NCBI RefSeq assembly: GCF_001999945.1
Contig: NZ_CP019650.1
Span: forward strand, 2,294,001 to 2,358,000
Direction: 5' to 3'
From: Microbulbifer agarilyticus
Lineage (GTDB): Bacteria > Pseudomonadota > Gammaproteobacteria > Pseudomonadales > Cellvibrionaceae
DNA length: 64,000 bases
Under the pieces are notes generated by a model. It made no database searches. It saw only the letters and a list, made by a program, of their open reading frames with translations, and was not told where the DNA came from. This document shows positions 27,003-64,000 of this stretch, piece after piece (position 1 is the first letter of the stretch; each line of letters opens with the position of its first letter). Both the position numbers and the translations under genes were made by a program.

Positions 27003-27262
27003 ACAACCTGCAAGTGTCGACAACGGGTTACGCGTATCGTAACCCATTCGATCAAATCGTCGCACTGCAGGCCCTTACAATAAGCTCTAAGACGGCTAAA
27101 CGTTGCAGTCTGTCGCGCCTTTCGTCGCCCTCTTTGACGCCGCAACCTTGAATTGATTTTCGTCAATGTATACGTCAAGTGGCTCTCTAGTATCACTATA
27201 AACACCAAGGGCAAGCTGTCTCGTGCCTAGTGGGTGAAAACACAATTCAATTGGAGGCAGTT

Positions 27263-28132
27263 ATGAAAATTCTCATTTTAGGTATGGGCCATGTTGGACG
27301 AGCGCTTGGAAGCAGCTTGCGTGCACAGGGACACCAGGTAATCGGCACCACCACAACCCCCGAAAAAATTGATGAATTAAAGCAATTTGCCGACGATGTG
27401 GCGGTATTAAAGGGGCACGAAGCAGACAAGGTCGCACTTGCCGCTACAGGGTGCGATGCAATCATTGTTACTGTTGCACCCAACGTTAAAAATACCCGTA
27501 CGCTCGACGAGCGTCACCGTCACTACCACCAAACTCTGGTCGAAACCTGTCAGAATGCGGCGAGCAACTGTAAGCGACTGATATTCCTGTCTTCATTTTC
27601 GGTGTACGGCGATGGCGGTGACGGCAGCGATGTAATTACCGAACAAACCCCAACTGGTAACCATGAGGAGCCCTCTTCTCGCTACTATCAGGAAGCGGAG
27701 CAAGCCATTCTTACTCGCAGCGATGGCTGTGTATTACGCTTCCCGGATATGTACGGTGCCCCTGGTGATCTGTCCTTTCCCCAGCGAGTAAAACTCGCCC
27801 ATAGCTATTTTGATGGAAAGGCGATATTTGGTGCGGATGCGCTACTCTATGCAATTCATTTTGAAGATGTGGTATCGGCGGTCACGCACGTGGTAGCGAC
27901 AGGACTGAAAGGTATTTACAACGTCTGTGACAATGAACGGATACCAGCCACAAATAAAACCGTGTTTGACGCAATTTGTGAAGCAGAGGAACTATCGCCA
28001 CTCGAATTTACCGGGCACATCAAGGCACCCACACGCAAGATTTCTGCCGCCCGGATCTACTCTACCGGCTATCGCGTGAAGCATGGTGACCCTAATGCAC
28101 ACTATATCGCTAACGTGGAAACCCAAGCATAA
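27263..28132 (+). CDS. NAD(P)-dependent epimerase/dehydratase-like protein (YeeZ-type SDR)
   Basis: A 289-residue extended SDR with the nucleotide-binding start MKILILGMGHVGRALGSSL (G-x-G-x-x-G), the LIFLSSFSVYGDGG segment around the S/Y/K position, a YYQEAEQAIL stretch and LRFPDMYGAPGDLS near the substrate site. The canonical Y-x-x-x-K is not clean (YYQEAE), so reductase activity is uncertain; YeeZ-type atypical SDRs share this feature. GGAGG precedes the ATG at 27263. It appears to be a single-gene unit. Confidence 0.82.
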   Translation: MKILILGMGHVGRALGSSLRAQGHQVIGTTTTPEKIDELKQFADDVAVLKGHEADKVALAATGCDAIIVTVAPNVKNTRTLDERHRHYHQTLVETCQNAASNCKRLIFLSSFSVYGDGGDGSDVITEQTPTGNHEEPSSRYYQEAEQAILTRSDGCVLRFPDMYGAPGDLSFPQRVKLAHSYFDGKAIFGADALLYAIHFEDVVSAVTHVVATGLKGIYNVCDNERIPATNKTVFDAICEAEELSPLEFTGHIKAPTRKISAARIYSTGYRVKHGDPNAHYIANVETQA

Positions 28133-28204: not shown

Positions 28205-28945
28205 TCAAAGCATCGTTGCCTGCTCAATTCTCTGGGTCAGTTCCTCACCAAACAGCATGACGACCTTATCCCGGTCTGGATCAGCTTCAATAATGGCCTG
28301 CATAATGCGCTCGCGACGCACCTTGCGCACGAGCGTCTCCGCTGGCGTATTCTTTTTCGGGTTCGCGCATATATCTAGCCAATCCGCAAGATACGCTTGT
28401 GCATAGCGGGAAAAATCCGCTAAGTGCTCGGGGGTAACACCGTAGGCAAGCAGAAAATACGGAGAACAACAAGCTCGCATATGCGCCATTCGCGAGGCCT
28501 CAATTGTCTCGATCGGTTTATCAAATCGAGCCTCGCGATACACACTCTCAACTCTGCGATAGCGTCTCTTAAAGTAATCAAGGTTCATCATTACATCGAG
28601 GTCAGGATAGAGATCAATCGATATTTGGCTACCCTTTGGGTTAAGCATTCCTTCAAAACTGAATCGAGGTATATTCAGCTCCGGGCTCGGAATCACATGG
28701 ATATTGAAGTATCGCATTCCAGGCATCATCGTTAATGACATAAATGCTGCCTTCTCGATCAGCCCGCCATCATGCGTGTACACCCGGGCAAACCCCATTT
28801 CCGTTCCCTGCAAATTCTTTAGTACTGCAAGATCTGAAAATTCGTCACTCAGTCGTAGTCCCAGCGCAGACACGATCTGCCCTTCAAAACCCGTTGCAAA
28901 TTCGTCAATCACTCGAGTCTCAGCACCAGCTTCCACCATATCCAT
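28205..28945 (-). CDS. red chlorophyll catabolite reductase-like protein (bilin reductase superfamily)
   Basis: A 246-residue soluble protein without a signal peptide. The central block resembles plant red chlorophyll catabolite reductase: P-x-F-x-F-E (PRFSFE, Glu98), a short loop, SIDLYPDLDVMMN and then DYFKRRY, corresponding to the plant run of P-x-F-x-F-E, ILDL-P-x-x-D and P-D-Y-x-x-x-x-Y. It is followed by R-A-C-C-S-P (161-162), the usual S-P of this fold, and a helical end (YAQAYLADWLDI). These enzymes reduce open-chain tetrapyrroles using ferredoxin. This assignment is from recalled motifs and is not certain. The start at 28945 has AAGGA seven bases upstream. It lies downstream of the haem peroxidase gene on the same strand, past a terminator. 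Confidence 0.6.
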   Translation of the reverse strand: MDMVEAGAETRVIDEFATGFEGQIVSALGLRLSDEFSDLAVLKNLQGTEMGFARVYTHDGGLIEKAAFMSLTMMPGMRYFNIHVIPSPELNIPRFSFEGMLNPKGSQISIDLYPDLDVMMNLDYFKRRYRRVESVYREARFDKPIETIEASRMAHMRACCSPYFLLAYGVTPEHLADFSRYAQAYLADWLDICANPKKNTPAETLVRKVRRERIMQAIIEADPDRDKVVMLFGEELTQRIEQATML

Positions 28946-28980
28946 AATGAAATCCTTTAAATTGTGACCTGATACAAACG

Positions 28981-29005
28981 AAAAAGGGGTGCCCAAAGGG
29001 CACCC
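28981..29005 (-). terminator. rho-independent terminator after the haem peroxidase gene
   Basis: On the minus strand the stem GGGTGCCC-TTT-GGGCACCC is followed by CTTTTTC. It sits 55 bases past the peroxidase stop and just before the bilin reductase-like gene, so that gene is either read through or has its own weak start signal. Confidence 0.85.
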
Positions 29006-33642: not shown

Positions 33643-36246
33643 TTAGAAGTCGTAGCTAACGGTGGCTCCGTATGACGGCCCCATACCGGTAGCGATAATC
33701 ATCTTGTTAAACTGACTCAAGACGAAAACACCACCGACGTACTCTTCGTCAAGAACGTTTTTACCCCAAATATTGAACCGCCAGTTTTCCGGTGCAGCGA
33801 GAGAAACATTGGCGTTGGTTATCGCTCTGTCGCCGGTGTGCGCCAAATTGAGCGGGGTCACATACTGTTTCGACTGATAGTTAGTGTCTAAACGGGCCAG
33901 TAACGACCAGCCATTAAACACTTCCGCCTGATAGTTAATACCAACGCTACCCTGCCACTCGGAGGTACGCGCCAACTGATTCCCACCCACGTCGGGGTCA
34001 CCACAGGGAACTGCCTGATCAGGCGTAACCATAATCGGCTGGAGGCATCCGCTGTTGATGAAGCGCGCACCCTCCTCATACTCCACACCATCATCATATT
34101 CAGGATTTGCCCACGCCATGGTGAAGTCGGTACTCCAGCTGTCACCGAGCAACCAGCGGCCATCGATCTCAAAGCCTATTGACTCTGCGTCTCCCGTGTT
34201 GGCAATTAGGATGGTATCCCCTACGGTTCCGGTAGTTGGCGCCTGCGACGTCTGCAAGTCTTCCCAATCAATCATGTAGAGTGCGGCATTCAGCTGGAAT
34301 GCACCATTCAGGAAGGTATTCTTGCTGCCGAGTTCATACGTCCAGTTTTGCTCCTCATCGTATGTAAGCTTGGCCACATCATTAGTGTTATTAAACCCAC
34401 CAGATTTAACCCCCATTGCAGCCGAGGCATAAACAAAGTGATCCGGGTCTACCTGATACTCTGCGGTCAAACGAGGGGTAAAGTAATGGAAGGTCTCCTG
34501 GTCTTCTGGAATGACAACACCAGAAAACGGCAGGCTTGCAGGCACACCGAAGCCATCGGTTAAGCGTCTAATACCTTTGTCTTCTTCGGTATAACGCATC
34601 TCCGCGCGCAGGGTCAGGCTCTCAGTTGGTGAGTACGCAGCCTCTGCGAACAGGGCGAACACATTGTCATCGAACAAAGTATGCTTGGACTCAGCGCCAT
34701 GCCACATTCCCAGACGCTGCGAAACCGGGTCAGGCGCCCCCATAAGCGGCGATCCGACACTTCCATCCGCCGGCAGACTACAAGCTGCCTGGCCCGATAT
34801 TCCATAATCGTAGCCAGCGTTAAATGTCGAGCAGAGCGGCATGTACAGCGTCAGGTCATAGCTCTCATCGTCGATACTGCTGTAATAGACACCGGCTCCG
34901 CCTTCCCATGTCTCCCCTTCGAAATTCAGACGCAACTCGTGCGAGTCACTTTCCAGGGTAGAAATCGGGCGACCGCTAAAGCTGTTGGTGTACGCGATCT
35001 GTGGTACGACCTGCATACCTCCACCGGGTACAGGGAACATCAATGTATCCCAGGTTGTGCCAACACCGGTGAGCGGATCTCGGTCTGCCGAACCACCATT
35101 AGTTAGTGAATCACTGCCTGTTCGGCCATAGAGATATGAAAGGGAAACACTATCGCTAAAGTCGTAATTCAGGGCGAGGCTGGCAACATCAGTTTCCGCT
35201 ACTGCCCCGATAGAACGAGGGTCGACGGTAATTGCATTGTGGCCGGTGTCATCGGGCGCAAATGGAGCCAGCACGTTATCTGTAGCGGTCGTGGGTGCAG
35301 TAGGCACCTCTCCACACCACCAGCTATTTGCTGTCATTGGGAACCCGAGGAACGACATACGGGTTACCGGATTACAATTCATATCACTATAGGCAGTGAA
35401 GCCCCAAGCATTATTCGCGATGCCAGACATCACATAATATGGCTGAGACTCGCGCTCAATTTCGGCGCGATAATAATCAAGTTTTACTTCCAGATTTTCC
35501 GATGGGCGTAATGCCAATGCGATGGAAATCGTCTGATCTTCCCAGCCCCCGAGCTTGCCATTGGTATGCGGACCGGGCACATCAGCGTCCGCAAATGGAT
35601 GCGCATTCCGTGTATGACCATCGTAAGTCGAATCGGCAATATTGATCTTGCCATATAGTAAATCTTCGATAATCGGCCCACTGACAAGTGCCTTTATATC
35701 CCGGCGCTCATCGGAACCTGCGGTTACTGAGACACTTGCCTCCAGGGAATCCGTGGCAGGGCTAGTAATGTAGTTCACCGCACCAGCGAACGCGTTGCGG
35801 CCGTACATTGCGCTCTGCGGCCCCTTAACCACCTCAACACGCTCCATATCGACAAGGCCGAAATTCATCATGCTTTGTCGCTGCAAATGAACACCGTTCA
35901 AGAAGAAGGCAACGTTTTGCGTCCGCGCAGTTGTGAAGGTTTGAGCCATCCCCCGAATTACGGCATTCCCGTTTGTACCGCTGGTGGAGAACCCTTCATA
36001 GGTGAAGCCAGAAGTAGCCGCAGCAATGTCTTCAAGACCCGAGTAGGCCCTTTGCTGGATTTCTTCCGATGTTACTGGCGAGATGGAAATTGGAACCTCT
36101 TGCAGGCTCTCACTCCGACGGCGGGCAGTAACGACGACTTCTTCGATACCCTCTACGGATTCGCTCGTTGACTGAGCGAGAATTTCGACCGGTGCAATGC
36201 TCACAGCTACCGCGGCAGCCAGTGCATGTTTCTTAAAGCTATACAT
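33643..36246 (-). CDS. TonB-dependent outer membrane receptor
   Basis: An 867-residue receptor: signal peptide (MYSFKKHALAAAVAVSIAPVEILA), a TonB-box-like EEVVVTARRR, a plug domain (VPISISPVTSEEI, then NVAFFLNGVHLQR and VEVVKGPQSAMYGRNAFAGAVNY), and a large beta-barrel ending in an aromatic terminal residue (GATVSYDF). Loops contain several cysteine pairs. It imports a ligand too large for porins; the ligand cannot be told from sequence. Its promoter is shared with the DUF1838 gene, and an NAD(P)-binding protein follows in the same transcript. The barrel type is that of the pesticin/yersiniabactin-like and terpenoid or aromatic uptake receptors common in marine gammaproteobacteria. Confidence 0.93.
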   Translation of the reverse strand: MYSFKKHALAAAVAVSIAPVEILAQSTSESVEGIEEVVVTARRRSESLQEVPISISPVTSEEIQQRAYSGLEDIAAATSGFTYEGFSTSGTNGNAVIRGMAQTFTTARTQNVAFFLNGVHLQRQSMMNFGLVDMERVEVVKGPQSAMYGRNAFAGAVNYITSPATDSLEASVSVTAGSDERRDIKALVSGPIIEDLLYGKINIADSTYDGHTRNAHPFADADVPGPHTNGKLGGWEDQTISIALALRPSENLEVKLDYYRAEIERESQPYYVMSGIANNAWGFTAYSDMNCNPVTRMSFLGFPMTANSWWCGEVPTAPTTATDNVLAPFAPDDTGHNAITVDPRSIGAVAETDVASLALNYDFSDSVSLSYLYGRTGSDSLTNGGSADRDPLTGVGTTWDTLMFPVPGGGMQVVPQIAYTNSFSGRPISTLESDSHELRLNFEGETWEGGAGVYYSSIDDESYDLTLYMPLCSTFNAGYDYGISGQAACSLPADGSVGSPLMGAPDPVSQRLGMWHGAESKHTLFDDNVFALFAEAAYSPTESLTLRAEMRYTEEDKGIRRLTDGFGVPASLPFSGVVIPEDQETFHYFTPRLTAEYQVDPDHFVYASAAMGVKSGGFNNTNDVAKLTYDEEQNWTYELGSKNTFLNGAFQLNAALYMIDWEDLQTSQAPTTGTVGDTILIANTGDAESIGFEIDGRWLLGDSWSTDFTMAWANPEYDDGVEYEEGARFINSGCLQPIMVTPDQAVPCGDPDVGGNQLARTSEWQGSVGINYQAEVFNGWSLLARLDTNYQSKQYVTPLNLAHTGDRAITNANVSLAAPENWRFNIWGKNVLDEEYVGGVFVLSQFNKMIIATGMGPSYGATVSYDF

Positions 36247-40529: not shown

Positions 40530-41183
40530 ATGTGGCACCTGGTACGTCTCGGTATTGCCCTGATCGGATTTTTGGGAGCAACCATGGCTTCGGCAATAGA
40601 AACACCTCAGCACACGGTGGTTGAGACACATTCAGACTTTGAATTGCGACGTTACGCCCCACAGATCGTCGCCGAGGTCGAAGTGGAATCCACTTTCGAA
40701 AATGCCAGCGGTTTGGCCTTCCGTTTACTGGCGGACTACATCTTCGGTAACAATTTAAGCCAGAAGAAAATGTCGATGACTGCGCCGGTGCAACAGCAGG
40801 CCAGTGAAAAGATCGCAATGACCGCACCAGTGGCACAGCAACCCACTGCGGATACCACAGTAGAATCGAGCCCAAACGGCAAGCAACGCTACCGGGTGAA
40901 TTTTTTCATGCCAGCGGAGTACACCATGGAAACTCTGCCAAAACCGAACAATCAGTCAGTGACTCTGCGACAAATTCCCGAGCGTATGATAGCGGTTCGC
41001 CGTTATCGCGGTGGCTGGAGCCAGGAGCGCTATCGCGCTGAAGAACGCAGGCTACTAGAGGCGCTGCGCACAGCAGGGTTTACCACAAAAGGCACGCCCA
41101 TTTTTAACCGCTACAACTCTCCCTTCTCGCTCCCATTGATGCGCGTCAATGAAGTGGCAATTGAAGTAGAGCCGAGAAGCTAA
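40530..41183 (+). CDS. SOUL-type haem-binding protein, exported
   Basis: A 217-residue protein with a signal peptide (MWHLVRLGIALIGFLGATMASA) followed by the SOUL fold: the E-x-x-x-DFELRRY start, the KKMSMTAPVQQQ and KIAMTAPVAQQ pair (two M-T-A-P-V repeats), and the C-terminal PIFNRYNSPFSLPLMRVNEV split around the P-F-S-L-P block. Eukaryotic SOUL/HBP proteins bind haem or other porphyrins. Gammaproteobacterial members are periplasmic and of unknown role. GGGAGG precedes the start. It stands between an efflux pump and LtrA. Confidence 0.92.
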   Translation: MWHLVRLGIALIGFLGATMASAIETPQHTVVETHSDFELRRYAPQIVAEVEVESTFENASGLAFRLLADYIFGNNLSQKKMSMTAPVQQQASEKIAMTAPVAQQPTADTTVESSPNGKQRYRVNFFMPAEYTMETLPKPNNQSVTLRQIPERMIAVRRYRGGWSQERYRAEERRLLEALRTAGFTTKGTPIFNRYNSPFSLPLMRVNEVAIEVEPRS

Positions 41184-58472: not shown

Positions 58473-58486
58473 TTGACTAAAGTCAA
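58473..58486. promoter_or_regulatory. FNR/CRP-type palindrome upstream of the methyltransferase operon
   Basis: TTGACTAAAGTCAA is a perfect TTGAC-N4-GTCAA inverted repeat, the shape bound by FNR/CRP-superfamily proteins (FNR prefers TTGAT-N4-ATCAA; HcpR-type nitrosative stress regulators prefer TTGAC-N4-GTCAA). It lies about 48 bases before the likely transcript start, near an activator position. The TTGACT could alternatively serve as a -35 hexamer. Confidence 0.55.
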
Positions 58487-58497
58487 AAAACGCAATC

Positions 58498-58521
58498 TAT
58501 ATCAAAACTTTTTGATATAAA
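58498..58521 (+). promoter_or_regulatory. perfect palindrome overlapping the probable -10 of the operon
   Basis: TATATCAAAA, two bases, then TTTTGATATA (58498-58519) is a perfect 10-bp-arm inverted repeat. The right arm carries TGATATAAA, an extended -10 (TG-N-TATAAA, 58513-58521). A protein bound here would block initiation, so it is a candidate repressor operator. It could also melt easily as part of the promoter itself. Confidence 0.55.
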
Positions 58522-58580
58522 ACGCACGCTTTCTGCGTTAAGGTTTCTCAAAACAGAGTAACAATAAAGCGAGAGCCCTC

Positions 58581-59381
58581 ATGAGCAAAGCCTATAACGA
58601 GATGTCTTATGTTGAAGTTGCTGCGATTTACAACGACATCAACAATATCCCGCTCGATGCGGCCGCCGACCTCGGTAAAGCAGCCGCAGACCTTGTAGGT
58701 GAAGGAGCCAAGATCATGGACTTCGGCGGTGGTGCCGGACGTATCTCCGTCCCTATCGCATCCCACACTGACATGATCGCCATGGATATTGAGCACCACA
58801 TGCTCAAGGCATCCAAAAAACTAGCCGAAGACCGCAACATTCGCGCGCGCCAGTCTGTTGGCACCGTTCTGCAAACCCCGTTCGCAACCAACACCTTCGA
58901 CGCGGTGATCACCACCAATGTACTGCACCAGATTGAATTTTGGCGTGATGCGCTGAAAGAAGCGGCTCGCGTTCTGAAACCCGAGGGTGTTTTCATTATT
59001 GGTCGCGATGTACTGGACGAAGAATCCAATGCGAGCGCCCTGCGCAACCAGTCCCGTATGTTCACCGTGGATATCGCTCCCGAAATGCGCCCCACCGATG
59101 CCGCTGGCCCCACTCTGTTCCAGGAAATCCAAAAACTCGGCGGTCAGATGACGCGCCCGGTAGTTGGATGCAAGTGGATCGAAAAGGTTTCCATTGCGGA
59201 AATTATGGATCGCATGGAAAACGGCATTCATAACGAGACCTGGAGCCTGAGCCGCGAGCAGATTGATGCGCTAATGGCCAAGGTACGCCCGTGGGCAGAG
59301 TCGCATTTCGACGATATTCACGCAGTCGAAGACGTTCAATGGGAGTTCCACCTCTACCCAATTAACGGTATTGGCAAGTAA
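58581..59381 (+). CDS. class I SAM-dependent methyltransferase
   Basis: A 266-residue soluble protein with motif I of SAM methyltransferases (IMDFGGGAGRISVPIA, about 45-60), an acidic residue at the end of strand 2 (MIAMDIEHHML), the motif II/III region FDAVITTNVLHQIEFW and LKPEGVFIIGRD. The helical C-terminal part (QIDALMAKVRPWAESHF) is not typical of a named subgroup, so its substrate is unknown. It is the first gene of a plus-strand operon with two PucC-like transporters, a Trm112-like protein and a MetE-like enzyme. Trm112 proteins activate methyltransferases, which makes this one the likely partner, by inference. Confidence 0.88.
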   Translation: MSKAYNEMSYVEVAAIYNDINNIPLDAAADLGKAAADLVGEGAKIMDFGGGAGRISVPIASHTDMIAMDIEHHMLKASKKLAEDRNIRARQSVGTVLQTPFATNTFDAVITTNVLHQIEFWRDALKEAARVLKPEGVFIIGRDVLDEESNASALRNQSRMFTVDIAPEMRPTDAAGPTLFQEIQKLGGQMTRPVVGCKWIEKVSIAEIMDRMENGIHNETWSLSREQIDALMAKVRPWAESHFDDIHAVEDVQWEFHLYPINGIGK

Positions 59382-59387
59382 GGTATA

Positions 59388-59407
59388 CGGGGGACCTTGA
59401 TCCCCCG
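59388..59407 (+). other. stem-loop between methyltransferase and PucC-like genes
   Basis: Arms CGGGGGA and TCCCCCG with a CCTTGA loop. No T-run follows, so it is more likely a transcript processing or stability element than a terminator. Confidence 0.4.
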
Positions 59408-59451
59408 CGCCCTCCGAACTCGAATAATGATAACGACTGCAAGAGTACCGT

Positions 59452-60825
59452 ATGGACAAGCGCCTTCTGATATTAAAAGCATTTCAGCTGACCCTGCCGC
59501 GCGCTGCTGCTGGTTGGCTATTCGCGCTACTCACAAGTAATTTCAATCGTATTGCTATTTACGACCTCGGGATTACCGCCGTTGTAATTACCAGCCTACT
59601 GGGGCTCTACCATTTCCTATCCCCATTCCAGGTTATTTACGGTCGTATCGCAGACAGGATTCCGATCTTTGGGCTCCATCGAACACCCTATGTAATGATT
59701 GGCATGACGGTCTCCGCGATCGCGGTCGCCACGCTGCCCTACATTGTGGTCCCCATGTCGCAAACACCCAACGAATTTCTTGGGGTGACTTTTCCATACA
59801 TTACGTATATCGCTGCATTTATCGTTCTGGTTATCTTTGGTATTGGATTCGCCGGGGCCGGCGCCAATCACTTGGCACTCGTTGCCGAAGTGATTCCCGA
59901 GCGCAGCCGCGGGCTAGTGACCGCGCTGATCTGGACCATGCTTATCGTCGGCATGATCGTGTCGCTGCAGTTTATTCGCCACTATATGCCCGTCTACGAT
60001 GAGCAAACTATGCGTGAGCTGTATCTGCTTTCTATTCCGGTAGTGGCAATCACCACACTGCTCGGTTTGATCGGCGTCGACAAACCTCGCACCACGGAAT
60101 CCGTTGCTGAATCGGATAGCAAACTGGACGCGGAAGAACACGCGAGCCTGAAAGACTTCGCAGTGGATGTGGCCAGTAACTCGACGGTTAGAAACTTCTT
60201 CGCCTTCATCTTTCTGTTTATGTTTGGCTATAGCCTGCAGGACAATATTCTCGAAGTCTTCGGTGCTGAAGTACTCCAGATGACGGTCGGCGAAACGGGC
60301 CGCTTCCAGCAAATCTGGGGCACCGGTGCAATCATCGGCATGTTCTTGATGGGGTCCCTGGTATTCCGCGGTGGTATATCCAAGATCAACGCCATCACCT
60401 TTGGTATCACCGGCATCGGTTTCTCGATGTTCGCACTGGCCGTAGGCGCCTACCTCCCTTCAGAAACCCTCGTGAACTATTCGCTAGCCAGCATGGGTTT
60501 CTTCAATGGATTTGCTTTAGTAGGCACGCTCACCAGCATGATGGAGTTCACGACGGACAAAGAGCGCGGTGCATACATCGGCCTTTGGGGTCTGGCTATC
60601 GCATTTGCCAACGGCCTCGCCTCCATCGCTGGCGGCCAGCTGGTGACCTCTTTGATCGAAAGCGGCATGTTCGGCGCCTCAGACGGCTTCGCCATCATCT
60701 TCTTCGTTGAAGGACTTATCAGCCTGTACAGCCTGTACTTCCTGTGGCGAGTGAATGTTGAGAGCTTCCACAAGCGCATCAGCAAAGATGGTCTCAGTAA
60801 TGCCATGGCGTCTGACCTTGGTTAA
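59452..60825 (+). CDS. PucC-like MFS transporter, first copy
   Basis: A 457-residue 12-helix membrane protein. It resembles the PUCC/bacteriochlorophyll-delivery branch of the MFS: the N-terminal LPRAAAGWLFALLTSNFNRIAIYDLGI block with N-R-I-x-I-x-x-L-G, the GRIADRIPIFGLHRTPYVMIG loop after helix 2 (G-R-x-(A/S)-D-x-x-P-x-x-G-x-(H/R)-R-x-P-Y), and a second-half block GAYIGLWGLAIAFANGLAS. In phototrophs PucC proteins assist light-harvesting assembly or transport chlorophyll-type pigments. Here no photosynthesis genes are near, so a different substrate is likely. A 33-base gap precedes a second, different copy. Confidence 0.8.
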   Translation: MDKRLLILKAFQLTLPRAAAGWLFALLTSNFNRIAIYDLGITAVVITSLLGLYHFLSPFQVIYGRIADRIPIFGLHRTPYVMIGMTVSAIAVATLPYIVVPMSQTPNEFLGVTFPYITYIAAFIVLVIFGIGFAGAGANHLALVAEVIPERSRGLVTALIWTMLIVGMIVSLQFIRHYMPVYDEQTMRELYLLSIPVVAITTLLGLIGVDKPRTTESVAESDSKLDAEEHASLKDFAVDVASNSTVRNFFAFIFLFMFGYSLQDNILEVFGAEVLQMTVGETGRFQQIWGTGAIIGMFLMGSLVFRGGISKINAITFGITGIGFSMFALAVGAYLPSETLVNYSLASMGFFNGFALVGTLTSMMEFTTDKERGAYIGLWGLAIAFANGLASIAGGQLVTSLIESGMFGASDGFAIIFFVEGLISLYSLYFLWRVNVESFHKRISKDGLSNAMASDLG

Positions 60826-60858
60826 CCCTGCAAATAATTCAAATAAAGGTGCATCGAA

Positions 60859-62283
60859 ATGAAAGTAAGTGAGGGTCAGGCAAAATTGCAGTTTACCCTG
60901 CAGAAGATCGCCATCGCCTGGAGCTTTTGCATGGTGGTGACGAGCTTCAACCGCATCGCCATTATTGAAATGGGCTTGCCGGCTGCAATCATCTCTCTGC
61001 TCATCGGGGTTTACACGCTGTTCGGCCCCATCCAGCCAATTATCGGCCGTATGTGTGAGCGCTGGCCGATCTTCGGCTATCGCCGTACCCCATACATGCT
61101 ACTGGGTACCCTGCTCGGCAGCTTTGCCTTCCCGCTGATGCCCGGCGTACTTGTCGATATGCAGGCGGGCAGCTCTCTGGCGTATTTCTACTGCCTGTTA
61201 CTGTTCTGTGCCTTTGGTATCTGTATTGCCATGCAGGCAAATGTGTTCCTCGACCTGCTCAACGACGTTACCACCAAGGAAAGTCGCTCTCGCGTGGTCA
61301 CCCTCACCTGGACCGTACAGGCGCTGGCCATGGCGGGATGGGCGTGGGTGTTTGGTGCACTGATGCCGGTATACAGCCTGGAGGCCATGCAGGATCTCTA
61401 TAACCTGACCCCGATCGTGATGATCAGCATTACGATTCTTGGCCTGATAAAACTGGAAACCCGGCTGACGCCGGAACAGCTTCAGGAAATTAAGACCAAC
61501 CCGCCAAAGCCGGTAAAACTGCTTGAGCCGATGAAGGAATCCATGGCGGTACTCGCCTACAACCGCCAGGCACTGCTCTTCTTTGTCTTTATTATCTTTT
61601 CCCTGCTCTCGGTATTCCTGCAAGACATGTTGCAGGAACTGTGGGCGGCGGACCTGTTCGGTCTTGCTGCGGGTGAGTCCACAATCTATCAGCGCTTCTA
61701 CAACGGTATTCAGACTGTCGGCATGGCGGCTTGCGGTATCTTTGTCGGCGTAACGGCGAAAAAGCGCTTACAGGCAAAAAAAGCGGCTGGTCTTTCCGTC
61801 GAAAATGAAAAAACCCTGCCACTAGATTTCGGCAAGAAACTGATGCTGATTGGCGCATCACTTTCCATTATCGGATTCGGTCTGTTGGCCTGGGCAGCCT
61901 GGCTCCAGAACCTGACCCTGTTCAACGTGTTTTACTGCTACAGCGCCTTCGCACTGGGACTACTGGTATTCCCCTCCATTAGTTTTATGGCTGACATGAC
62001 CGTCGAGGGCCAGGAAAGCCGCTACCTCGGATTGTGGAGCCTCGGGCAGGTAATTGGTTTGTTCCTTTCCTTTACCGTCAGTGGCTGCCTGTATTCCCTG
62101 CTGGTAGAAAGCCAAGTACTTACCGCCAATATTGCTTTCGCACTCATCTTTGTCCTGCAGGCATTGATGGTCGTCTTCAGCTATCTGGTTGTACGCAATG
62201 TCACCATCGAAGGCCTCAACGAAGCAGCAGAACAAGAACCTGATGCTCCGATTACAGCCGACTTACAACCAACTACCAAATAA
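60859..62283 (+). CDS. PucC-like MFS transporter, second copy
   Basis: A 474-residue 12-helix protein of the same branch as its neighbour: SFNRIAIIEMGLPAAIISLLIG and the GRMCERWPIFGYRRTPYMLLG loop, in which the acidic Asp of the first copy is replaced by Cys-Glu. The C-terminal half has EGQESRYLGLWSLGQVIGLF, matching the first copy's GAYIGLWGLAIAF. The two are clearly diverged, so the pair probably works as a heterodimer or has two substrates. AAAGGTG precedes the ATG. It is followed by the Trm112-like gene after 37 bases. Confidence 0.8.
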   Translation: MKVSEGQAKLQFTLQKIAIAWSFCMVVTSFNRIAIIEMGLPAAIISLLIGVYTLFGPIQPIIGRMCERWPIFGYRRTPYMLLGTLLGSFAFPLMPGVLVDMQAGSSLAYFYCLLLFCAFGICIAMQANVFLDLLNDVTTKESRSRVVTLTWTVQALAMAGWAWVFGALMPVYSLEAMQDLYNLTPIVMISITILGLIKLETRLTPEQLQEIKTNPPKPVKLLEPMKESMAVLAYNRQALLFFVFIIFSLLSVFLQDMLQELWAADLFGLAAGESTIYQRFYNGIQTVGMAACGIFVGVTAKKRLQAKKAAGLSVENEKTLPLDFGKKLMLIGASLSIIGFGLLAWAAWLQNLTLFNVFYCYSAFALGLLVFPSISFMADMTVEGQESRYLGLWSLGQVIGLFLSFTVSGCLYSLLVESQVLTANIAFALIFVLQALMVVFSYLVVRNVTIEGLNEAAEQEPDAPITADLQPTTK

Positions 62284-62320
62284 CACCGAATAAGTAATAC
62301 CCAAAAACGGGAGAGACATA

Positions 62321-62560
62321 ATGAACATTCAAGATTACCTGGACATTCTCCGCTGCCCTCACTGTACCGCTGAAAACAAGGGCCTCCTGTCTGAAGTGAA
62401 AAGTGATTGGCTGGGCTGCAGCGACTGTGGCCGCCAGTATCCGATGGTTGAAGGTATCCCAGTGATGCTTCCTGAAGAAGGCGACAAGTGGCAAGGCGTT
62501 GCGGCAAGCGAGCTCCCCACCATCTCGGAGCACGATCGCTTCGTTAACAGCACTGACTGA
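62321..62560 (+). CDS. Trm112-like zinc-ribbon protein
   Basis: A 79-residue protein with C-P-H-C at 12-15 and C-S-D-C-G-R-Q-Y-P at 33-41, then VEGIPVMLPEE: the short Trm112/YcaR fold with a four-cysteine zinc site. Trm112 proteins bind and activate methyltransferases; YcaR-type proteins are free-standing. A strong GGGAGAG precedes the start. Its position between a transporter and a MetE-like gene, in an operon that begins with a methyltransferase, suggests that it is the activating partner of that methyltransferase or a carrier for the MetE-like enzyme. Confidence 0.82.
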   Translation: MNIQDYLDILRCPHCTAENKGLLSEVKSDWLGCSDCGRQYPMVEGIPVMLPEEGDKWQGVAASELPTISEHDRFVNSTD

Positions 62561-62650
62561 AATTCTGGCACCAAGGTGATGGAGTAGATCTACCACGATC
62601 GCTCCATTTACCGTTAAGACCGCGTAAGAAATAACAACGAATAAACAAAA

Positions 62651-62672
62651 ACGTGACCGACAACAGTCACGT
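62651..62672 (+). other. stem-loop before the MetE-like gene
   Basis: Arms ACGTGAC and GTCACGT with an eight-base loop, 20 bases before the MetE-like start and within the 131-base gap after the Trm112-like gene. Possible regulatory or processing element. Confidence 0.4.
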
Positions 62673-62691
62673 CCGGTTGAGGTATTGAGAT

Positions 62692-63804
62692 ATGTGGAAA
62701 ACAGACCTGTTTCCAACGCAGCTCGTGGGCAGCTATGTAAAACCCCGCTGGCTCGCAGACCATAACAAGGTTTACCAGAAAGAAGGCACCTGGTGGAACG
62801 TAGAACAAGATCTACTTCCTGAAGCCATCGATGATGCTGTGCGTCTTGCCGTCTACGATCAGAACATGGCCGGCATGACATTCGCCACCGACGGTGAAGT
62901 ACGCCGACAAACCTTTAGCGGCCACTTCTACGACCTGAAAGGTATCGACCAGGAAAACCCGGAAGAATTCACCAACTTCCACAACGATATTACCGAATAT
63001 CTGAAAATGAAGCAGAAGGCCACCAATGTCGGTGCCGATCTGAAAAAAGAAGAAGCACCCAAGCAGACCCACAAGGTTTTGTTCCCCGCAGTACGGGAGA
63101 AAATCCAGTGGCCTGGGCCAATGGTTGTCAGCGACATTCCATTCCTGAAGCGCTATGCCGCAAACCGCAGCAAAATCACCGTGATTGGTCCTGTTACCCT
63201 CTCCTACCGACTGGTGGATGCAGGCGTGTACCCAGACCAGGCGGCTTTGTGCTTTGCGATTGCCGATGCGCTGAATCAGGAACTGAAGGCACTGGCTGCG
63301 GCCGGTGTGGATCTGATCCAGATCGACGAGCCGGAAGTGCACTTCCGCTACAGCCAGTGCCAGGACTTTGCCGTTGAAGCCATCAACCGCATGGTTCGCG
63401 GCGTAGACTGCCTCACCTCTGTGCACGTTTGCTACGGCTACTCGAAAAATATTGCGCTGAAAGAACCCAGCCCTATTTATCCGAAAGCGGTGTCACTGGT
63501 TGCCGAGTCCGACATTGATGCCATTCATACTGAATATGCACAACCCGGACACACGCCAGACTTCCTGCAGTCCGTTGGTAACAAGCTGGTTGCCATCGGT
63601 GTTCTCAATCTGGACCCACAGGGCCAGGTGGAGGAAGTGGAATCCATCCGCAAGATGATCATTGATGCGATGGAAGTCATCCCGAAAGAGCGCATCAGCC
63701 TGGCACCGGATTGCGGTATGTGGTTCCTCGAGCGCGACTTTGCCTTCCGCAAAATCCAATCCATGTGTCTTGCTGCAAGCTCCCTCCGAAACCAGTTTGG
63801 TTGA
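62692..63804 (+). CDS. MetE-like zinc methyltransferase (cobalamin-independent methionine synthase C-domain family)
   Basis: A 370-residue single-domain protein corresponding to the catalytic C-terminal half of MetE. Zinc ligands of the family are in place: His245 and Cys247 (SVHVCYGY), a glutamate (HTEYA, Glu281) and Cys341 (LAPDCGMWFLERDFAFRK). The IQIDEPEVHF substrate block (Asp212-Glu213) is present. MetE itself needs a duplicated N-terminal domain for folate; short homologues such as core-MetE/MesD-type proteins and epoxyalkane:coenzyme M transferase use other methyl donors or thiols. The substrate is therefore unknown. It is in the operon with a methyltransferase and PucC-like transporters, with a further gene starting 13 bases on. 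Confidence 0.88.
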   Translation: MWKTDLFPTQLVGSYVKPRWLADHNKVYQKEGTWWNVEQDLLPEAIDDAVRLAVYDQNMAGMTFATDGEVRRQTFSGHFYDLKGIDQENPEEFTNFHNDITEYLKMKQKATNVGADLKKEEAPKQTHKVLFPAVREKIQWPGPMVVSDIPFLKRYAANRSKITVIGPVTLSYRLVDAGVYPDQAALCFAIADALNQELKALAAAGVDLIQIDEPEVHFRYSQCQDFAVEAINRMVRGVDCLTSVHVCYGYSKNIALKEPSPIYPKAVSLVAESDIDAIHTEYAQPGHTPDFLQSVGNKLVAIGVLNLDPQGQVEEVESIRKMIIDAMEVIPKERISLAPDCGMWFLERDFAFRKIQSMCLAASSLRNQFG

Positions 63805-63817
63805 TATTGGAGGACTT

Positions 63818-64000
63818 GTGGGAACCCGAAAAACCCTTGAGGAGCTGGTTCGGCAACTGCAGCTGCAACTGAACCCCGCTGTGTCAGTGGACCCGGAGAA
63901 CGTAAAGAGCATCCGGGTTCACTGCTACAGAGATGCGGCTGATCCTGCAGTATTAGACAACCTAAATAATTGCTTTCAACAGCAACTCCCTATTCCTCAG
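63818..64000 (+). CDS. unidentified gene, 5' end only
   Basis: An open frame of 61 codons runs from a GTG to the window edge, with GGAGG four bases before it and 13 bases after the MetE-like stop, so it belongs to the same operon. The product starts VGTRKTLEELVRQLQLQLN and has VKSIRVHCYRDAADPAVLDNLNN split around an I-x-V-x-x-Y-x-x-D-A-A-D run. That segment vaguely recalls the RidA/YjgF fold, but too little is present to name it. Confidence 0.6.
   Translation, partial: MGTRKTLEELVRQLQLQLNPAVSVDPENVKSIRVHCYRDAADPAVLDNLNNCFQQQLPIPQ

Follow-up and report, generated by a model that had tools for sequence, protein, structure and literature searches.

The window analysed here, a stretch of 64,000 nucleotides from Microbulbifer agarilyticus, ends within an operon that joins two PucC-type transporters to genes of methyl transfer. 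Coordinates above 64000 carry the window numbering on past its edge, and the features discussed below are as follows.

28205–28996, minus strand: distant paralogue of RCCR/bilin-reductase type (19.8 bits for Fe_bilin_red and 14.9 for RCC_reductase, neither reaching its cut-off)
58498–58519, no strand: SahR-type operator, a perfect 10-2-10 palindrome, TATATCAAAACTTTTTGATATA, 61 bases upstream of the MT start
58581–59381, plus strand: MT, class I SAM-dependent methyltransferase, 266 aa
59452–60825, plus strand: PUCC1, BCD-family (chlorophyll-type) MFS protein, 457 aa
60859–62283, plus strand: PUCC2, second BCD-family MFS protein, 474 aa
62321–62560, plus strand: Trm112-like zinc-ribbon protein, 79 aa, under curated cut-offs
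62692–63804, plus strand: METE, short MetE-like (core) homocysteine methyltransferase, 370 aa
63818–64441, plus strand: UNK, conserved protein, 207 aa; the window holds 63818–64000 and 441 bases lie past its end
64448–65452: adenosine kinase, the operon gene after UNK, outside the window

The six plus-strand genes from MT to UNK lie in the order given by an earlier note on this DNA, and their intergenic gaps, put there at 13 to 131 bases, measure 70, 33, 37, 131 and 13 bases. That note also credited each gene with a ribosome site, which was generous because three of the six are weak: by eye, the sites are clear for PUCC2, the Trm112-like gene and UNK, but weak for MT, PUCC1 and METE. Past the window end the operon runs through the remainder of UNK, which has no Pfam or NCBIfam match, and the adenosine kinase gene, downstream of which lie a TonB receptor, ahcY, metK and a Rieske oxygenase. 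The gene set and its order are conserved in five named contigs (four from Microbulbifer and one from Aestuariicella), and Oceanicoccus (G068) carries the set broken into two parts close together, in line with the conservation that the note had made a test of its proposal. Of 72,556 plasmid records, 219 match, all below 60% identity, with a top value of 34% among the best 20 of the 219.

The operator upstream of MT is one of two perfect 10-2-10 palindromes within the window. In this genome, SahR-type sites lie upstream of the operon, metK and a SahR-like gene, while the backwards-pattern control of the scan returned none here and one in G068 and G174. At the loci of relatives, a site with at most three mismatches precedes MT in 7 of 7 cases and metK in 6 of 6, the site before MT in G174 being too diverged for the one-mismatch scan. 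The SahR-like homologue (gene of L064) combines an ArsR HTH with a methyltransferase domain. Described SahR regulons, which respond to AdoHcy and mostly contain methionine-cycle genes, share with this locus a 20-bp palindrome ahead of both metK-ahcY and an ArsR-type regulator, whereas the putative regulon here would extend to PucC-like transporters, MT, METE and adenosine kinase (PMC4239095, in excerpt).

PucC-type proteins are associated with chlorophylls. PUCC1 and PUCC2, which share about 27% identity, score 220.7 and 154.8 bits against PF03209 (cut-off 21), and among the best 120 of 411 PUCC1 relatives those named by their source are BCD-family MFS or chlorophyll transporters. With the reaction-centre marker PF00124 as our measure of phototrophy, no match was found in any of the 12 genomes of the order that carry a homologue of RCC reductase (RCCR), this genome included, while the Synechococcus control and G040 both matched. 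Hidden phototrophy as the reason for the PucC-type proteins is therefore rejected on this marker, and the pair does occur outside phototrophs, as had been suspected. The proteins resemble the PucC/LhaA/BCD family of phototrophs in their family score and named relatives, but differ in standing as two tandem copies within a methyl-cycle operon in a genome without PF00124. PUCC2 orthologues of at least 75% identity occur in four genomes, all four among the 12 RCCR-positive ones. In Halioglobus (G158), which is METE-positive, a search for PUCC2 relatives at E<=1e-20 gave none, and the stretches examined contain no MT. In G040, a 33% PucC-like gene adjoins a 31% relative of MT with a TonB receptor beside them and no METE close by; because G040 has PF00124, the pairing of MT with PucC is common to a phototroph.

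METE matches Meth_synt_2 (72.2 bits, cut-off 21). At the positions given for MetE (PMC7857596, in excerpt), the zinc ligands H245, C247, E281 and C341 and the homocysteine residues S14, E69 and D212 do not vary across 19 aligned homologues, and the domain search found no N-terminal (folate) domain of MetE, as the earlier note had read from the sequence; residues and domain content are those of a core methionine synthase. METE resembles the core enzymes MesA–MesD in consisting of the catalytic domain, keeping these residues and dispensing with the folate-binding N-terminal domain, but differs in falling far below the curated models, in residing in genomes that already have MetH, and in its Rieske, RCCR and adenosine kinase neighbours (PMC7857596, in excerpt). 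Its NCBIfam scores, with cut-offs in brackets, are 177 (406) bits for PRK04326, 173 (392) for PRK09121 and 109 (258) for PRK00957, far too low for us to adopt the label MesD, and no operon protein matches DUF1852 (PF08908), the MesX partner. Nor is methionine synthesis left to METE alone: MetH is present in all six genomes checked, including all five METE-positive ones; full-length MetE is present in three of the six. The METE tree, in which one clade with a very low support value was read after rerooting, was used for its topology alone, and the comparison of METE with PUCC1 took in 37 of 120 METE and 24 of 120 PUCC1 matches listed.

MT belongs to Methyltransf_11 (72.1 bits, cut-off 21.2). 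The Trm112-like label given earlier holds as a resemblance only, because the protein falls below both curated cut-offs (19.1 bits against 22 for Pfam Trm112p and 37.6 against 77 for the NCBIfam Trm112 model). For the kinase, the closest solved structure is an adenosine kinase (3ubo, E=1.2e-50), followed by 4e3a, named a sugar kinase (E=9.6e-48), and its NCBIfam matches are all PfkB-type and below cut-off, with ribokinase first. Judged by sequence, the operon and its TonB receptor, ahcY, metK and Rieske neighbours together encode a predicted full methyl cycle.

The RCCR homologue of this Microbulbifer lies 27 kb past the window end, separate from the operon. It matches PF06405 (50.1 bits, cut-off 24.9) and the solved RCCR 3agb (E=6.6e-9), and it scores higher as RCCR than as bilin reductase (50.1 against 26.2 bits, and again 38.7 against 23.5 bits). 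We assign it to the RCC-reductase family, with a putative role in red chlorophyll catabolite reduction; what we take to be the substrate-binding Glu of Arabidopsis RCCR is apparently not conserved in the alignment. The surrounding region, which is also found in further genomes of the order, encodes an SDR, imidase-, nitrilase- and maleate-isomerase-like proteins and CoA transferases, as well as a 323-aa protein with no family or structure match. The SDR has only generic SDR matches, and a sequence motif makes it a candidate 'NYC1-like' protein. The nearest solved or curated relatives of the Rieske protein are of the NdmA, VanA_C and SdmA types. The PaO domain PF08417 was found neither in the Rieske protein of this genome (E<=0.01) nor in that of G269, and a different Rieske gene in G174 gives a weak PaO match (17.8 bits, cut-off 27). 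In 9 of the 12 RCCR-positive genomes, RCCR has a close relative of the Rieske gene at a distance of about 20 kb or less; in G241, G068 and G174 the two do not share one 20-kb stretch. Because of RCCR, we did not adopt breakdown of caffeine or other methylxanthines, suggested by the proximity to NdmA and by PuuE-like proteins, or breakdown of sterols, suggested by the match to the SdmA model. A search by solved structures and Pfam gave no chlorophyllase, and Staygreen (Mg-dechelatase) had no match in 13 genomes, with the control equally silent.

METE and RCCR occur together. In a survey of 390 genomes of the order (RCCR at E<=1e-15, METE at E<=1e-60), 12 are RCCR-positive and five METE-positive, with all five among the 12, an overlap whose chance is 1e-8 by genome and 7e-5 by genus (3/142 and 7/142), kinship ignored. 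METE is absent from the other seven RCCR-positive genomes, one of them a Microbulbifer, and hence is not needed for the rest of the proposed programme. Distant METE genes, about 50% identical, have RCCR and Rieske genes within 10 kb in 3 of 15 contigs of other groups: L013 and L016 (Acidimicrobiia), the former with the SDR as the next gene, and L019 ('Deltaproteobacteria'). Two more of these loci (L008–L020, L029 and L031) hold another pathway marker (L031 and L017, the latter truncated where its contig ends), and ten have no marker save generic MFS or SDR matches; several of the contigs measure only 3–9 kb. The count leaves out the partial genes L041 and L045, all loci below 45%, and L021–L024 (45–49%; placed on a sister branch or with a frame whose length kept it out of the tree), where RCCR and Rieske had no match.

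From the observed gene content, order, conservation, shared operator-like sites and co-occurrence with RCCR, we infer a substrate, a direction of transport, a mode of regulation and a series of catalytic steps. The operon is probably the transport and methyl-cycle arm of a programme for the catabolism of chlorophyll-type tetrapyrroles in a non-phototroph. The TonB receptor would import the pigment, and the two PucC-type proteins would move it across the inner membrane or retain it there. The macrocycle would be reduced by the SDR, opened by the Rieske oxygenase and then reduced by the RCCR-like protein, steps for which plants use NYC1, PAO and RCCR, and imidase-, nitrilase-, amidase- and maleate-isomerase-like enzymes with CoA transferases would feed the pyrrole-derived pieces into central metabolism. 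METE would methylate homocysteine, the most plausible methyl donor being the ring methyl ester; MetK, MT, AhcY and adenosine kinase would close the cycle, handing the methyl to some further acceptor, with the Trm112-like protein a possible partner of MT and an AdoHcy-responsive SahR-type repressor governing both the operon and metK-ahcY. More tentatively, and with considerable doubt, METE may be a cobalamin- and folate-free zinc demethylase in which the homocysteine thiolate takes the methyl of the C13(2) methyl ester of a chlorophyll-derived tetrapyrrole in a Krapcho-type dealkylation, so that methionine would come straight from phytoplankton pigment and MT, MetK, AhcY and adenosine kinase would form a closed relay disposing of methyls. 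Glycine betaine demethylation by MtgBCD/Bhmt likewise feeds homocysteine from a catabolic methyl donor, but is corrinoid- or Bhmt-based, whereas here a MetE-type enzyme and a tetrapyrrole-ester donor are proposed (PMC12478193, in excerpt).

The earlier note had proposed a methyl-transfer pathway with paired transporters, which gene content and conservation fit, and one that makes or modifies a small molecule, which is not supported: we favour breakdown over synthesis because of the genes beyond the window and the company METE keeps in other phyla. That the operon instead builds a methylated product exported by the PucC pair, with methyl-cycle genes supplying SAM and clearing SAH and the catabolic region nearby by accident, seems distinctly improbable. 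MT, metK, ahcY, adenosine kinase and the SahR-type operator would suit a SAM-hungry methyltransferase, and MT adjoins a PucC-like gene in the phototroph as well, away from METE; against this, METE tracks RCCR across genera and in three contigs of other phyla, and the five METE-positive genomes already have MetH. It is rather doubtful, too, that METE simply acts as a supplementary core methionine synthase akin to MesD within the SahR regulon, drawing on some donor from central metabolism, a reading that is compatible with pigment catabolism and denies only the pigment-derived methyl. The intact zinc and homocysteine residues, the usual presence of methionine-cycle genes in SahR regulons (PMC4239095, in excerpt) and the likewise aerobic, folate-independent MesD, itself a core methionine synthase (PMC7857596, in excerpt), speak for it, whereas the low scores against the curated synthase models, the link to the RCCR/Rieske neighbourhood and the presence of MetH, with MetE in three genomes, speak against it.

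The substrate itself may also differ. RCCR falls within a wider bilin-reductase family that has members in heterotrophs (PMC10151467, in excerpt), and it is conceivable, if unlikely, that the region degrades haem-derived bilins, phycobilins or another methylated ring compound, with the RCCR-like proteins acting there and the operon as methyl arm. The N-, O- and sterol-demethylase types nearest the Rieske protein are consistent with this, as is the finding that every one of the five METE-positive genomes has between one and five RCCR/bilin-reductase-like matches. The better fit of the homologue to RCCR than to bilin reductase argues for chlorophyll instead, as does the known association of PucC-type proteins; to our knowledge, haem-derived bilins carry no methyl on a heteroatom.

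Plants break chlorophyll down by the PAO/phyllobilin pathway, with NYC1, PAO, RCCR and MES16, and remove the methyl ester. The bacterial genes are similar in bringing an RCCR-family protein, a Rieske oxygenase and an SDR into one conserved neighbourhood, and plants, too, remove the ester methyl. They differ in that the Rieske protein is of VanA/KshA type rather than PAO-family, in the lack of a Staygreen match (control silent), and in adding CoA enzymes and enzymes of ring-fragment type, joined in some genomes by METE and the methyl cycle. In the literature searched, we found no published description of the operon system, as the earlier note had supposed, and no bacterial gene set for dismantling the chlorophyll ring. 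Chlorophyll is synthesised and destroyed every year on a very large scale, and our analysis points to a possible genetic programme by which some bacteria would consume this green pigment. If this reading is true, RCCR, the Rieske oxygenase, the SDR, METE and the paired PucC-type proteins would serve as markers of pigment-eating bacteria, the presence of PucC-type transporters in non-phototrophs would be explained, and there would be a testable new route from the methyl group of a pigment to methionine.

In non-phototrophs, an operon of putative methyl-cycle and PucC-type genes is linked by co-occurrence to a conserved neighbourhood encoding a homologue of plant red chlorophyll catabolite reductase (RCCR), a Rieske oxygenase and a dehydrogenase/reductase (SDR). 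The genome that holds the window (G000:C1:2294001-2358000) is a single contig of 4.26 Mb. All six genes described in the earlier note lie where it placed them, separated by 70, 33, 37, 131 and 13 bases: a SAM methyltransferase (MT), two BCD-family MFS proteins (PUCC1 and PUCC2), a Trm112-like protein, a short MetE-like protein (METE) and a gene of no family (UNK). UNK is followed by a PfkB kinase, whose top solved relative is adenosine kinase 3ubo (E=1.2e-50). Coordinates past 64000 equal the position in stretch L002 plus 56000, or the G000:C1 position minus 2294000:

63818-64441, plus strand, UNK, crossing the window end
64448-65452, plus strand, adenosine kinase (ADK)
65842-68421, minus strand, TonB-dependent receptor
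68844-70274, minus strand, ahcY, S-adenosylhomocysteine hydrolase
70341-71561, minus strand, metK, SAM synthetase
71646-71667, second operator, TACATCAAAATATTTTGATATA
71709-73235, plus strand, sodium-solute symporter
73426-74610, minus strand, Rieske oxygenase
74709-75824, minus strand, CoA transferase

Because the operon and the genes past the edge encode MetE-like, MetK, methyltransferase, AhcY and adenosine kinase proteins, the set is predicted to contain all the steps of a methyl cycle. Microbulbifer loci L003-L006 and L068 likewise carry the symporter that separates metK from the Rieske gene (L002 15709-17235); in the Aestuariicella locus L007 no such symporter was found.

The gene set is conserved, as the earlier reading required. 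Among 53 loci obtained by aligning METE over the genome contigs, five (four Microbulbifer, and Aestuariicella) keep the order MT-PUCC1-PUCC2-Trm112-METE-UNK-ADK, TonB receptor, ahcY, metK. METE is 99% identical to that of two M. agarilyticus strains and is rare: within the order, 5 of 390 genomes have it, and in a phylum sample at E<=1e-60, 2 of 398 do (G000 and one 40% relative). In Oceanicoccus sagamiensis, MT-PUCC1-PUCC2-Trm112 is near but apart from metK-ahcY-Rieske-METE-ADK, with UNK two genes further, and in its congener (G174) Rieske-METE-ADK-UNK adjoin with the MT-PUCC module ~370 kb off. Halioglobus maricola METE has a Rieske gene and a TonB receptor as neighbours; a search of that genome at E<=1e-20 gave no PUCC2 relative, and the locus stretches examined contain no MT. 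Among the part of the matches that was compared, at least four further METE proteins, beyond Aestuariicella and Oceanicoccus, come from a contig equal in length to that of a PUCC1 relative, and so are perhaps on the same contig.

A 22-base palindrome, TATATCAAAACTTTTTGATATA, lies 61 bases upstream of MT, with a near copy upstream of metK; in O. sagamiensis both are altered in step to ATATCAATATATATTGATAT. The pattern ATATCAA-N6-TTGATAT with <=3 mismatches, a loose threshold that gave additional matches in two O. sagamiensis stretches, is present upstream of MT in 7/7 relatives' loci and of metK in 6/6. A one-mismatch whole-genome scan of G000 returned four places. Two are at the operon and metK, and a third is 89 bases upstream of where the match to a SahR-like ArsR-methyltransferase gene begins. 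The fourth (G000:C1:1196908-1196927) is likewise a SahR-type palindrome with one mismatch. A backwards-pattern control matched nowhere in G000 and once each in O. sagamiensis and G174, whose operon site carries two mismatches and hence falls outside the scan. In H. maricola one site precedes a SahR-like gene and another, ~2.9 kb before a MetH activation domain, is probably where metH starts. According to PMC4239095, the SahR motif is a 20-bp palindrome and the core regulon includes ahcY, metH, metF and metK. Given this motif and regulon and the sites at the operon, metK and the SahR-like gene, the operon probably belongs to an AdoHcy-responsive regulon.

Beyond the window lies a neighbourhood with a putative catabolic character. 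The RCCR-like genes and the SDR are:

28205-28996 (in the window), minus strand, distant RCCR-like paralogue
91133-91945 (G000:2385133-2385945), plus strand, RCCR homologue, 27 kb beyond the window
105798-106517 (G000:2399798), minus strand, second distant RCCR-like paralogue
110038-110844, minus strand, putatively NYC1-like SDR

The RCCR homologue scores 50.1 bits against the Pfam red chlorophyll catabolite reductase model (cut-off 24.9) versus 26.2 bits against bilin reductase, under the cut-off of 31, and among solved structures it matched Arabidopsis RCCR (E=6.6e-9). The SDR active site is NMEGFGS, a possibly NYC1-like motif. Besides the Rieske gene and this SDR, the stretch from G000 2367000 to 2420000 encodes PuuE-like deacetylase/imidase-type proteins, an arylmalonate decarboxylase/maleate isomerase-type protein, CN-hydrolases and an isochorismatase-type amidase. 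It also encodes CoA transferases, an HpcH/CitE lyase, an HMG-CoA-lyase-like protein, a rubredoxin reductase and a flavin reductase. Together these enzymes could convert a tetrapyrrole through maleimides, maleamates and maleates to CoA thioesters. Within the window, an NAD-binding Epimerase-type gene (27230-28132) adjoins the distant RCCR-like paralogue, and such a gene is also near an RCCR paralogue in L114 (2081) and, by eye, in L122 (7059). A TonB-dependent receptor (33643-36246) is 40% identical to the one beside METE in H. maricola (L066:4062-6542), and a SOUL haem-binding protein (40530-41183; PF04832, 169 bits, cut-off 27) is another tetrapyrrole-related gene.

Within the order, an RCCR homologue is present in 12 of 390 genomes, apparently the same draw as for the METE count. 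All five METE-positive genomes are among the 12, seven of which have no METE; the chance of such an overlap is 1e-8 by genome and 7e-5 by genus, before any adjustment for kinship. PUCC2 orthologues were found in four genomes, all RCCR-positive; a fifth match (36%) is in a phototroph, G040, in which RCCR had no match. There, a PucC-like gene, a 31% MT relative and a TonB receptor adjoin (L088 8361-13469, a stretch in which METE is absent), perhaps as a pigment uptake module. A close Rieske relative lies within ~20 kb of RCCR in nine of the 12 genomes, and was absent from the stretches examined around RCCR in G241, O. sagamiensis and G174. Other genes too, among them those for the SDR and the maleate-isomerase type, are found repeatedly across RCCR loci. 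Outside Gammaproteobacteria, METE relatives of ~50% identity have RCCR and Rieske genes within 10 kb in two Acidimicrobiia loci (L013, where SDR immediately adjoins METE, and L016) and one 'Deltaproteobacteria' locus (L019). L031 and L017 have, of the markers, the maleate-isomerase type only, and in 10 of the 15 non-gammaproteobacterial loci none of the markers was found in the stretch examined, generic MFS or SDR matches apart. In the topology of a quick tree, read without support values, the METE relatives of these loci group in one region with the window METE. Actinobacterial MAG contigs L009, L012, L014 and L015 carry METE relatives (51-53%) in an ordinary-looking context without pigment genes.

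METE keeps all zinc and homocysteine residues and falls under the cut-off of every curated methionine synthase model. MetH is present in 6/6 genomes checked, and full-length MetE additionally in G000, G269 and G229. Because a homocysteine methyltransferase is kept alongside a catabolic cluster, its methyl donor is suggested to derive from the catabolic substrate. In chlorophyll a, the single methyl on a heteroatom is that of the C13(2) methyl ester. If a zinc thiolate attacked this ester, the products would be methionine and a beta-keto acid, and the latter would lose CO2; we offer this as a doubtful proposal for the METE reaction.

Consistent with the earlier note, which knew of no such system, a search on bacterial chlorophyll catabolism, bacterial RCCR and non-phototroph PucC, covering mostly open-access literature, bioRxiv preprints apart, found no account of this gene set. 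One related paper, by Rockwell and colleagues, reports bilin-reductase relatives in heterotrophs, its main text mentioning neither PucC, Rieske, methyltransferase nor Microbulbifer (PMC10151467); cyanobacteria have RCCR-like proteins, according to PMC2716323. Of the earlier interpretation, a methyl-transfer pathway with paired PucC-type transporters in a non-phototroph holds, but making or modifying a small molecule as its purpose is not supported. The wider genomic context raises the interest of the operon above what the earlier note stated.
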